Part shown: piece by piece, positions 232 through 4,104 of the stretch | How positions within the stretch are numbered: position 1 is the first letter of the stretch | How the letters are laid out: each line of letters opens with the position of its first letter | NCBI GenBank assembly: GCA_017473165.1 | Contig: JAFUNA010000009.1 | Span: forward strand, 1 to 61,925 | Reading direction: 5' to 3' | Origin: Clostridia bacterium | GTDB lineage: Bacteria > Bacillota > Clostridia > Oscillospirales > Acutalibacteraceae | Length of the DNA: 61,925 nt | Translations under genes and position numbers: made by a program | The notes under the pieces: generated by a model | The model's database searches: none | What the model was told of the DNA's origin: nothing | What the model saw: only the letters and a program-made list of their open reading frames with translations

Positions 232-275
232 AGCCTCCCTTTTAAGGGAGGGGGACCGCTTGCGGTGGAGGGATT
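232..275. repeat. Intergenic GGAGGG palindromic element, copy 1
   Basis: A palindrome CCTCCCTTTTAAGGGAGG (234-251) is followed by GGGACCGCTTGCGGTGGAGG. The same arrangement (CCTCCCC/GGGGAGG palindrome, then a GCGGAGGGG tail) recurs at 3111-3153, which suggests a dispersed non-coding repeat. Confidence 0.6.
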
Positions 276-314: not shown

Positions 315-2822
315 ATGAGAAAGGTGTGTATCTGTACCCTCAATGCCGAGCTGGCACAAGGGTCTGCAAACTATCTTAAACATAAGCTTTCGGCTTATTC
401 GGAAATTGCTGAAATCAATAATTTCAGCGATGCCGCATCCTTTGCCGAGGGTGCAAAAAGCTGTGCCGCAAACGGCGGTACGGTCATTGCCGCTGCTCCC
501 GTTTCCGTTTTTCTTAAAGCAAAGCTCCGTCTGATGAAAGCCCTTTCCTCAAAAATCGTCAGAAACAATTCAATCCTTGCTGCAATGGGTGCAAACGCTC
601 CCGCAGACCCAAGAGAAAAGGATTTGCAGGCGGCAATTCCCGAAAAAGCCGAGGTTGTTGTGTCGCCCGACGGAATTTTTTCCGGCTTTATCGCCGGCGG
701 CACGGAAAATCCCTTGATTTTTATTCCTCTTGAAGAAAATATTCTTCGCTTCATGTTTGCAAACGGTCTCGGAGCGGTTTTCGCAAAGCTCTTTGCAAGA
801 GCCGCCGCACCGCAGCCCGCCAAAGCTCCCGAAGCTCCCAAATCGGGAGTGAATAAGCTGAAATCCCATGTTGAAAAGGTTATTTCAAGCGGCAAAACCG
901 TTGCAATTTCTCCTGCGGGCTGTGCAAAGCCCCTCATTTCCGCAATTTCCACCGTCAACGGCTGCGAGGAAGCCTTTGTGGTTGACTCCGCTCTGCGTGA
1001 CAAGCTTCAGGGCGAATCAACAGAGGAATATGTTGCCCAATGTGCGAAGATTTCCAAGGAAAATTCGGGTGCGGATCTGGGCATAGGCATATCCAATATA
1101 TATAATGAAAACAACGGAAGCGGCGATTTTGTCATCGTCTGCGTAGCCGATTCCCAAAGAGCAAAGGCGGCAAAGGTTTATGCAAACCCCGGTGAGGACA
1201 AAAAGCATCTCATCGTTGCGGCGGTAATCAAGCTCTGCTCAATGCTGGACGAGCTCTCCGCAACGGGTCTTGTTAATCCCGATGCCTCTGCAAAGCAGCC
1301 AAAAAAATGGGGCAAGAACTCAAAAACGCCCATGATAATTGCGATTGCCGTGCTTGCGGCTGCGATTATTGCCTGCGTTGTTTTTGCCTTCGTTCTCGGC
1401 AGCAGGGATTCCGGCGGCACATCCGTCAATTATGAGGGCGGCAACGAATACGTTCAGGACATATATAATAATGAAACGGTAACGGAAAACGCCTTTGATG
1501 ACCGCTTCATAAATTACGGCGGCAGTCCTCTTGACCCCTTTGAGGGAATAGACAATGCACCCGTACAGATAACCGACCCGTCAACAATTTACGGCGGCTA
1601 CACAACAACCTCCTCAACCCGATTCACAACCCTTGCAACCACGGTGCAGAGAATAACAACCACCGCTACCAAGGCGTTGACAACTCTTGCAACAACCGTT
1701 GCAAAAATCACAACAACGATACAAACAACGGTAACCACCACTGCAAAACCAACAACTACAACTACAACTAAAGCTACTACTGTTACAACAACGACCACCA
1801 CCAAGCCTTCAACAACAAAAGCTCCCGCCGATGTTTCTCAAGGAACAACAGGCTCAACCGCCAAAAGCGATGCAACCTTCGGTGACGGCTCAAGCGGTAC
1901 ATTCATTTTCAGAGTTTACGGCTACGGCCACGGCGTAGGCATGAGCCAGGACGGTGCAATCAAGATGGCGAAAAACGGCAGCGGCTACGAGGAAATTCTG
2001 ACAAACTATTTCGTCGGCACAACCGTCAAAACCGATTCCGCAACTCCCGCAACCGTCAAATACGGCGGAAAGGATATTCCCCTTGTTGAGTATCTCTGCC
2101 GCACAACGAAGCCCGAAATCGGTGCGGGTGCTCCCACGGAGGCACTTAAGGCACAGATTGTCTGTGCTTATACATATGCAAAGTGGTATGATTTTGATGT
2201 TGCGAAGTCACGCCATGCATATGACCCCAACTACGAATATATCGGCACAAATATCCACAAGGCTTGTCTTGCTGTGCTCGGAATGGTGTCGGATACCGAT
2301 ACTCCCAAAGCACCCTATGTTGACTATAACGGCAAGGCGGCGTTCACCTGCTATTTCGCAAGTGCAGCGGGCAAAACCGCATCGGCATCCAGCGTTTGGG
2401 GCGGAGCGGATTCGCAGTATCCCTATCTTGTAGGCGGAGCGAAAAGCCCCGAAACCGTTGACACAACAACGGTTGAAATCAGTGCGGAGGATATGAAAAA
2501 GCTGATTGAGTCCTACGGAAAGGACAACGATGTTCAGATTACTCTTGACAGTGACCCTGCAAAGTGGCTCTCAATCAAGACCCACGACAAGGCGTATAAC
2601 GATAACATCGGCTACGTCACCACAATGAGGGTCGGCAACTATGAGGTGAGGGGCAATGCGTTCAGATGCTATGTTCTGGACTACAAGATTCGTTCCCATT
2701 GCTTCACCTTTGAGTATGTGCCCAACAAGTCGGCAGAAACAACCGCAAAATCTGAAACAACAACCTCAACAACTGCATCGACAACGGTTTCAACAACCGA
2801 GTCAACCGCAGCCGCATCATAA
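315..2822 (+). CDS. Membrane-anchored SpoIID/LytB-domain protein, circularly permuted, with CinA-like N-terminal half
   Basis: An 835-residue protein. Residues 1-165 look like a degenerate CinA/MoCF fold and 180-315 like a CinA C-terminal domain (GADLGIGISNIY, then a strand and helix). A single transmembrane segment lies at 339-362. A Thr-rich linker (about 429-505) leads to a SpoIID/LytB domain, and a second Thr-rich tail closes the protein. In SpoIID the GYGHGVGMSQ motif is normally C-terminal. Here it is first (536-545) and precedes the EALKAQ block (609-614). The Glu that aligns with the SpoIID lytic transglycosylase catalytic residue is kept at E601. The fold assignment and N-terminal similarity come from motif recognition. 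By topology the CinA-like half is cytoplasmic and the glycan-acting half external. It sits alone, with a terminator behind it. Function in peptidoglycan remodelling is inferred. Confidence 0.8.
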   Translation: MRKVCICTLNAELAQGSANYLKHKLSAYSEIAEINNFSDAASFAEGAKSCAANGGTVIAAAPVSVFLKAKLRLMKALSSKIVRNNSILAAMGANAPADPREKDLQAAIPEKAEVVVSPDGIFSGFIAGGTENPLIFIPLEENILRFMFANGLGAVFAKLFARAAAPQPAKAPEAPKSGVNKLKSHVEKVISSGKTVAISPAGCAKPLISAISTVNGCEEAFVVDSALRDKLQGESTEEYVAQCAKISKENSGADLGIGISNIYNENNGSGDFVIVCVADSQRAKAAKVYANPGEDKKHLIVAAVIKLCSMLDELSATGLVNPDASAKQPKKWGKNSKTPMIIAIAVLAAAIIACVVFAFVLGSRDSGGTSVNYEGGNEYVQDIYNNETVTENAFDDRFINYGGSPLDPFEGIDNAPVQITDPSTIYGGYTTTSSTRFTTLATTVQRITTTATKALTTLATTVAKITTTIQTTVTTTAKPTTTTTTKATTVTTTTTTKPSTTKAPADVSQGTTGSTAKSDATFGDGSSGTFIFRVYGYGHGVGMSQDGAIKMAKNGSGYEEILTNYFVGTTVKTDSATPATVKYGGKDIPLVEYLCRTTKPEIGAGAPTEALKAQIVCAYTYAKWYDFDVAKSRHAYDPNYEYIGTNIHKACLAVLGMVSDTDTPKAPYVDYNGKAAFTCYFASAAGKTASASSVWGGADSQYPYLVGGAKSPETVDTTTVEISAEDMKKLIESYGKDNDVQITLDSDPAKWLSIKTHDKAYNDNIGYVTTMRVGNYEVRGNAFRCYVLDYKIRSHCFTFEYVPNKSAETTAKSETTTSTTASTTVSTTESTAAAS

Positions 2823-3498: not shown

Positions 3499-3597
3499 AT
3501 GCCCGAAAGCATCAGAAAATTCTTGCAGATATGCGTTGATGCAGGAGGTGGCCGCTCGTTGAAGCGGGAAATTTCTGCGGAGTATGTCCGATTTTAA
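3499..3597 (+). CDS. Possible 32-residue leader peptide upstream of rpsJ
   Basis: ATG at 3499 is preceded by AAGGGG at a workable distance and opens a 32-codon frame (MPESIRKFLQICVDAGG...) that ends at 3597, inside the S10 leader and before the terminator-like hairpin at 3686. No stretch of one regulatory amino acid is visible, so a classic amino-acid attenuation peptide is unlikely. It could be spurious. Confidence 0.25.
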   Translation: MPESIRKFLQICVDAGGGRSLKREISAEYVRF

Positions 3598-3685
3598 ACC
3601 GGGCGAATTGTGTCCTTGCGTAAGGTCTGCCGTTCCCGGGCAGCCTTGTTGCGGGATACCTATGTGCAAATGAGCGAAAGCTTTC

Positions 3686-3792: not shown

Positions 3793-4104
3793 ATGGCAGT
3801 TAAGGGAAAAATCAGAATCAGACTTAAGGGCTACGATCACAGCCTTGTTGACAAGGCAGCAGAGAAGATTGTAGAAACAGCTAAGAGAACAGGCGCTCAG
3901 GTTTCGGGTCCCGTTCCCCTTCCCACAGAAAAGGAAGTTGTTACAATCCTTCGTGCTGTTCACAAGTACAAGGACAGCCGCGAACAGTTTGAACAGAGAA
4001 CACACAAAAGGCTTATCGACATTATCAGACCCTCAGCTAAAACAGTTGAAGCTCTGACAGGTCTTGAGCTTCCCGCAGGCGTTGAAATCGAAATCAAGCT
4101 TTGA
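3793..4104 (+). CDS. rpsJ: 30S ribosomal protein S10
   Basis: A 103-residue uS10 protein with the family's [11 protein letters not shown] opening and RLIDIIRP near the C-terminus. It sits in the 30S head, and as NusE also joins transcription antitermination complexes. It is the first gene of the cluster, with AAGGAGG ahead of the ATG. The usual upstream str genes (rpsL, rpsG, fusA, tuf) are absent, so the cluster starts from its own promoter at 3436. Confidence 0.97.

Follow-up and report, generated by a model that had tools for sequence, protein, structure and literature searches.

Architecture of the gene and its product

Close to the start of the window, by which we mean the whole stretch of 61,925 nucleotides that was analysed, lies a gene for a protein with a CinA-like N-terminal half, a predicted membrane segment, a linker and a SpoIID/LytB domain (Table 1). 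The hydropathy profile peaked over the predicted membrane segment and the linker was rich in threonine over its second part, in agreement with the sequence-only reading, which had placed a membrane segment ahead of a Thr-rich linker. Basic residues were found directly ahead of the membrane segment, and an orientation with the N-terminal side in and the C-terminal side out is expected.

Pfam searches with the 835-aa product recognized the SpoIID core alone (PF08486 at residues 587-630, 30.6 bits with a cut-off of 23). The NCBIfam model for SpoIID/LytB, TIGR02669, matched in two stretches with 100.6 bits (cut-off 83.3), and the best of these, residues 443-572, covered the last part of the model (positions 143-269 of 270). 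Because this model scores the permuted form described below over its cut-off, the permutation is easily missed.

Table 1. Features of the gene and of the encoded protein (window coordinates)
Feature	Position	Strand	Basis or remark
Whole gene	315..2822	+	835 aa + stop
MoCF (COG1058)-like half of degenerate CinA, residues 1-160, without the Asp pair	315..794	+	hhalign to intact CinA, residue counts
CinA (NMN deamidase)-like half, residues 178-316, without the Lys	846..1262	+	hhalign, residue counts
Predicted membrane segment, residues 341-359 (hydrophobic peak)	1335..1391	+	Hydropathy
Linker, residues 360-525, Thr-rich from about residue 425	1392..1889	+	Sequence
Segment B, residues 526-573, the usual C-terminal end of SpoIID	1890..2033	+	phmmer, alignment
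GYGHGVGMSQ, residues 536-545, inside segment B	1920-1949	+	Sequence
New joint of the permutation, residues 574-588	2034..2078	+	Cut-point scan: optimal cut behind domain residue 56 (near residue 579)
Segment A, residues 589-804, the usual N-terminal part of SpoIID	2079..2726	+	phmmer, alignment
Catalytic Glu601	2115-2117	+	Within segment A
EALKAQ, residues 609-614	2139-2156	+	Within segment A
Thr/Ser-rich C-terminal tail, residues 806-835	2730..2819	+	Sequence

Circular permutation of the SpoIID/LytB domain

When the protein was compared with PDB sequences by phmmer, two pieces of it matched Clostridioides difficile SpoIID (5i1t) in exchanged order: residues 512-572 aligned with positions 270-327 and residues 589-785 with positions 65-267. 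The three solved SpoIID sequences matched in this search all have the canonical order. Rechecking the positions of the motifs showed that GYGHGVGMSQ does precede both Glu601 and EALKAQ, as had been stated from the sequence.

Each of 104 permuted domains was scored in every rotation, in 4-residue steps, against a canonical profile made from 19 SpoIIDs (18 of other families, taken from the phylum search, and the one of the window's own genome). The 104 rows consist of the window's domain and 103 of 109 representatives; L003, which duplicates the window, was left out, as were L041, L054, L181, L182 and L187. Rotation raised the score of every one of the 104 domains by more than 20 bits. The mean score rose from 68.6 to 138.9 bits and that of the window's own domain from 62.9 to 136.7 bits, with the median best cut at domain residue 56 (range 40-112). 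Canonical-order controls gained at most 2.4 bits in 14 of 15 cases; the remaining control, L221, gained 18.3 bits at a shift of 4 residues, which is taken as a slice-edge effect. The per-domain median over all rotations had a mean of 100.6 bits, so that many cuts help, as expected for a permutation; since many cuts give part of the gain, it is the peak near residue 56 that counts.

Separate profiles for the two segments, applied to the fetched loci, detected the swapped order in 111 distinct genes and the canonical order in 35, genes being counted as distinct if they had no 60-residue word in common. Recurrence of the swapped order in 111 distinct genes rules out a misassembly or a chance motif. 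The order was also swapped in all 80 named loci, which are the best 80 of at least 527 relatives. A search of the fetched loci with the same segment profiles for a doubled intermediate (ABA or BAB) gave no gene with three segments.

Judged by the exchanged phmmer pieces and the gain on rotation in 104 of 104 cases, the domain is a real circular permutation of SpoIID/LytB, a permuted variant and no plain member of the family. The permutation proposed by the sequence-only reading is thus borne out, and homologues with the same motif order are numerous. A peptidoglycan-cutting fold that occurs circularly permuted in nature shows where such a fold tolerates new ends. In the open-licence literature, no paper on a permuted SpoIID was found by listing, and none on SpoIID by title for circular permutation of a lytic transglycosylase.

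Conservation of the catalytic residues

Ten columns were invariant in the 104 aligned permuted domains, the column of the catalytic glutamate (Glu601 in the window's protein) among them; the motif residues G13, G15, H16, G19 and S21 were invariant in 104 of 104 domains. In the phmmer alignment Glu601 pairs with the glutamate of the AGEMSS stretch in C. difficile SpoIID, and we take it for the counterpart of Glu101. According to PMC6221140, exchange of Glu101 for Ala abolishes the activity of C. difficile SpoIID. From these conserved residues we infer that the outer domain is a putative lytic transglycosylase. With the known SpoIID/LytB lytic transglycosylases, such as C. difficile SpoIID (5i1t/5txu), it has both segments, the catalytic glutamate and GHGVGMSQ in common, but the present protein differs in its swapped segments, its Thr-rich linker and its CinA-like half.

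The same conservation bears on an alternative in which the permuted domain would be an idle wall-binding module gripping the glycan, with the CinA-like half acting otherwise in the cytoplasm. PMC6635528 describes a SpoIID homologue that binds peptidoglycan besides cutting it, and the fusion of permuted domains to dockerin (see below) would fit a binding module. A pure binder, however, would have no need of a glutamate that is invariant in all 104 aligned domains, nor of a motif that is mostly so, and we consider this alternative unlikely.

The N-terminal half is derived from CinA

An alignment of 62 relatives of residues 1-346 was compared by hhalign with an alignment of nine hand-chosen intact CinA sequences, which gave a probability of 99.1 and an E value of 9e-19 over 323 colinear columns (1-325 to 1-411). 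A smaller alignment of the N-terminal half gave a probability of 94.7 (E 6e-8), and the control comparison with the alignment of permuted SpoIID domains a probability of 0.1. The top match of a PDB profile search with the N-terminal half was also a CinA (6mr3, E 5e-4). In Pfam, the N-terminal half of the window's protein matched no family at E 1, and 7 of the 62 members matched CinA weakly (best E 0.0051), none of them over the cut-off. Profile comparison and PDB profile search together rule out that the N-terminal half is unrelated to CinA.

The 62 rows comprise the window's sequence and 61 of 76 representatives. Besides L036, which duplicates the window, 14 representatives were omitted; many of these are divergent and have no membrane segment, and the following counts therefore lean to the closer relatives. 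At CinA positions 75 and 76, which are Asp in 9 of 9 CinA sequences, Asp was present in none of the 62 rows, position 75 being F or Y in all of them. At position 309, where all nine CinA sequences have Lys, none of the 62 rows has it; two runs of the count gave 60 and 57 rows with a gap there. S or T was kept at position 351 (Thr in CinA) in 62 of 62 rows, and an acidic residue at positions 12 and 45 in 25 and 19 rows, respectively. A short linker between the two halves takes the place of the CinA KH domain, which was unmatched in hhalign; a median of 13 of the 73 KH positions was occupied (no more than 20 in 40 of 62 rows, up to 54 with the linker).

For the CinA of Thermus thermophilus, PMC4246079 describes binding of Mg2+ by Asp76 with Asp45 and Glu12, and proposes Lys301 as general base with Thr340 as its partner. 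Read from the motifs rather than from the alignment, the lost Asp and Lys positions would be those of Asp76 and Lys301, and positions 12, 45 and 351 those of Glu12, Asp45 and Thr340. By its profile match and colinearity the N-terminal half is a CinA derivative, and it probably has neither CinA activity. Residues 1-315 had earlier been read as a degenerate MoCF-CinA pair, a description that fits both the hhalign result and the loss of the Asp pair and the Lys in all 62 rows. Compared with CinA proper (COG1058, KH and NMN deamidase, as in T. thermophilus CinA), the half is colinear over the 323 columns but has a mostly empty KH region, lacks the Asp pair and the Lys, and is joined to a membrane segment.

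Each of 25 genus genomes searched contained a separate CinA match, which passed the curated cut-off in 22. Among all fetched loci, some of which are cut, distinct CinA-like halves were joined to a permuted domain in 55 cases and to a canonical SpoIID in two, and stood alone in 24. Nine of these 24 stand-alone proteins have no membrane segment, which argues against transmembrane signalling as a universal feature. Given this and the lost CinA catalytic residues, the sensor-like nature named in the sequence-only reading is putative.

A recurrent cluster with cinA and sortase genes

In two genomes of relatives, G021 (L195) and G022 (L198), two sortase-profile genes lie between cinA and the permuted gene, all on one strand. 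The same gene order was seen in G006 (L197), whose contig (L124) gives two sortase matches, and in G018 (L196), where the middle genes are named by their position only. Upstream in this cluster are genes which, by eye from their sequence features, we take to be of iscS and thiI type.

In the genome of the window, contig C17 ends in the same gene series. Two sortase genes (Pfam Sortase), both with TLSTC, lie downstream of cinA, and the contig ends 209 bases beyond the second of them; the contig of the window, C3, begins 314 bases ahead of the permuted gene. Given these two ends, the contigs are probably adjacent, and the permuted gene and the cinA-sortase series of this genome would then be neighbours. 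Ahead of the permuted gene, at window positions 252-272 (+), lies a short element, GGGACCGC, 4 bases and GGTGGAGGG, of which six copies with at most one mismatch were found in the genome (reversed control, 0). As a guess, this element might explain the contig break.

On the other side of the gene, an S10-Clostridia ribosomal protein leader was detected at 3528-3606 (+) (RF03136, 40.5 bits, gathering threshold 35.1), followed by open reading frames, the first of which lies at 3793, that by eye resemble ribosomal proteins. A fixed link to the S10 operon was ruled out, as other genes follow, by eye, in the four relatives L195-L198.

For a count of neighbours we used the 57 loci of at least 12 kb among the 80 named loci (the best 80 of at least 527 relatives) and considered the match strand. 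On the same strand, a sortase gene was present in 43 of the 57 loci and a CinA-profile gene in 38; a CinA-like half was fused in 29 and encoded by a separate gene in six, and 14 loci had no sortase, CinA or CinA-like half. From the same best 80, the loci L185-L192 have no CinA-like half, with sortases in 8 of 8 and CinA in 7 of 8; the Ruminococcus sp. loci among them (L185 and L187-L190) have a sortase in 5 of 5 cases and CinA in 4 of 5. By these counts permuted genes of relatives usually stand in a recurrent cluster that also contains cinA and sortase genes, a link that is new here. For a CinA-sortase-SpoIID link, as neighbours or as fusions, no paper was found in the open-licence literature.

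These figures also concern the possibility that the two segments are exchanged between chains in a segment-swapped dimer, with the help of the CinA-like half. The joint between the segments is short, about 15 residues, and true CinA is a dimer according to PMC4246079. A fused CinA-like half is nevertheless missing from 28 of the 57 loci of at least 12 kb from the best 80 of at least 527 relatives, and such an exchange appears highly improbable.

Distribution of the permuted domain and of SpoIIP

Within the genus, 34 of 36 other genomes searched gave a match to the permuted domain; the exceptions were G005, which is without a match, and G032. Twenty-eight permuted domains from the genus were aligned with that of the window. 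In the family, matches spanning the joint were found in at least 44 of 250 genomes, the window's genome included, and these 44 come from 21 genera; the other family rows among the matches listed covered the GHGVG half only, as with canonical SpoIID. Among the matches listed, a search of 197 genomes of the order with a limit of E 1e-17 gave a spanning match in the window's genome only, and so did a search of 398 genomes of the phylum for stop-free spanning matches, so that rare cases elsewhere may exist; the row of G617 in the phylum search runs to position 89 of 115 with two stop codons inside. Many genomes in the survey are metagenome-assembled. A scan of named genomes, from which the best 80 of at least 527 relatives were taken, returned mostly metagenome-assembled rumen and gut Clostridia, and among these best 80 also Candidatus Onthovicinus excrementipullorum and Ruminococcus sp.

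The genome of the window also carries a canonical SpoIID. A third, weak SpoIID-like match in this genome (L004, G000:C18, a frame of 461 aa) shows, behind a very short SpoIID-like stretch, repeats which by eye resemble peptidoglycan-binding domains. SpoIIP was found in 13 of 24 genus genomes searched, including the window's own. Six genomes of at least 90% completeness (G007, G012, G015, G017, G018 and G020) have the permuted domain and no SpoIIP, from which it follows that an engulfment role is not required.

Origin of the permutation

A quick tree was calculated from 126 rows, comprising 92 permuted domains, 15 cluster-linked canonical SpoIIDs and 19 other canonical SpoIIDs. All 92 permuted domains fell on one side of one branch (SH-aLRT 79), near the 15 cluster-linked canonical domains and away from 18 of the 19 others; the canonical SpoIID of the window's genome stands between the groups. 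A careful tree with trimmed ends had 57 rows, among them 27 of the 92 permuted domains; L108, L199, L201 and L220 were left out. Here 39 permuted and cluster-linked rows were separated from 18 other canonical SpoIIDs with a support of 99/87. The permuted group needs two changes in this tree and formed one clade in 8% of 200 bootstrap trees; a topology in which the permuted rows form one group was not rejected (p-AU 0.19). The longest branch of this tree is that of L202, the position of which is uncertain. A single origin of the permutation is therefore possible, and the groupings suggest that it probably arose within the SpoIID lineage linked to cinA and sortase genes, perhaps through a tandem duplication after which the ends were lost.

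The tree and the distribution of SpoIIP both bear on the possibility that the gene is a sporulation gene, a second SpoIID for engulfment or cortex, with an incidental cinA-sortase neighbourhood. Canonical SpoIID and SpoIIP are indeed both encoded in the window's genome. Against this stand the separation from the 18 other canonical SpoIIDs in the careful tree, the six near-complete genus genomes without SpoIIP and the recurrence of the sortase and CinA link in the Ruminococcus sp. loci from the best 80 of at least 527 relatives, which make a sporulation gene very unlikely. Unlike the engulfment SpoIID, the permuted protein neither groups with ordinary canonical SpoIIDs nor goes with SpoIIP, and it also occurs in genomes where SpoIIP was not found.

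Sister forms and fusions

In four loci from other genera of the family (L203, L215, L225 and L228), CinA and sortase are joined in one chain, and the adjoining chain contains a weak remnant that resembles CinA, a weaker domain of sortase type and a canonical SpoIID. L199 (G081) and L220 (G119) unite CinA, a sortase-like domain and a canonical SpoIID in single chains, in frames of 1159 and 1229 aa; for L199, Pfam gave the CinA parts and a weak SpoIID, with sortase not among them. L200, from another family of the order, is a CinA-sortase fusion. These seven fusions contain the same domain set, and their SpoIID part is of the same lineage; in contrast to the permuted protein, L199, L203, L215, L220, L225 and L228 have the canonical SpoIID order and a sortase domain within the chain.

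L202 (G156) combines a CinA-like half, a membrane segment and Thr-rich parts with a canonical SpoIID whose motif is GSGSGVG. Split pairs occur in L204, L205 and L206, where a CinA-like gene without a membrane segment is followed by a gene for the permuted domain; these pairs adjoin a galE-like gene (by eye), and Pfam found a dockerin with the permuted domain in L204 and L206.

A possible role in the opening of the cell wall

The link to sortases suggests that the wall is opened at anchoring sites, and gene order and fusions together may point to wall cutting tied to sortase anchoring. We regard it as having somewhat better than an even chance that the protein is a membrane-anchored permuted SpoIID/LytB lytic transglycosylase that cuts near sortase sites and is held or regulated by a pseudo-CinA. 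The outer domain would cut glycan strands near the attachment sites of the neighbouring sortases, so that protein anchoring and local wall opening would go together. The inner pseudo-CinA would hold or regulate the enzyme at the membrane and might form a pair with the intact CinA that the cluster encodes. Against this reading stand the 14 of 57 loci, from the best 80 of at least 527 relatives, that have none of the partner genes nearby.

The link to CinA, for its part, suggests a tie to pyridine-nucleotide recycling, perhaps through pairing of a dead with a live CinA. The dead CinA could pair with the live one or sense its ligand, and NAD recycling would then set the wall opening for the sortases. 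The permutation would put the tether beside the GHGVG segment, which would allow control from inside. Such control of the wall by NAD recycling seems quite unlikely. With the CinA-sortase-SpoIID link one can test if wall cutting, protein anchoring and NAD recycling form a single process in gut Clostridia.

During engulfment, SpoIIQ (LytM, peptidase M23) and SpoIID are separate proteins. The paralogue L031 (G007:C1), by contrast, is according to Pfam a single chain in which a peptidase M23 is joined to a permuted SpoIID. L134 has a similar M23-permuted SpoIID architecture by eye, with an extra C-terminal part that presumably resembles peptidase C39.
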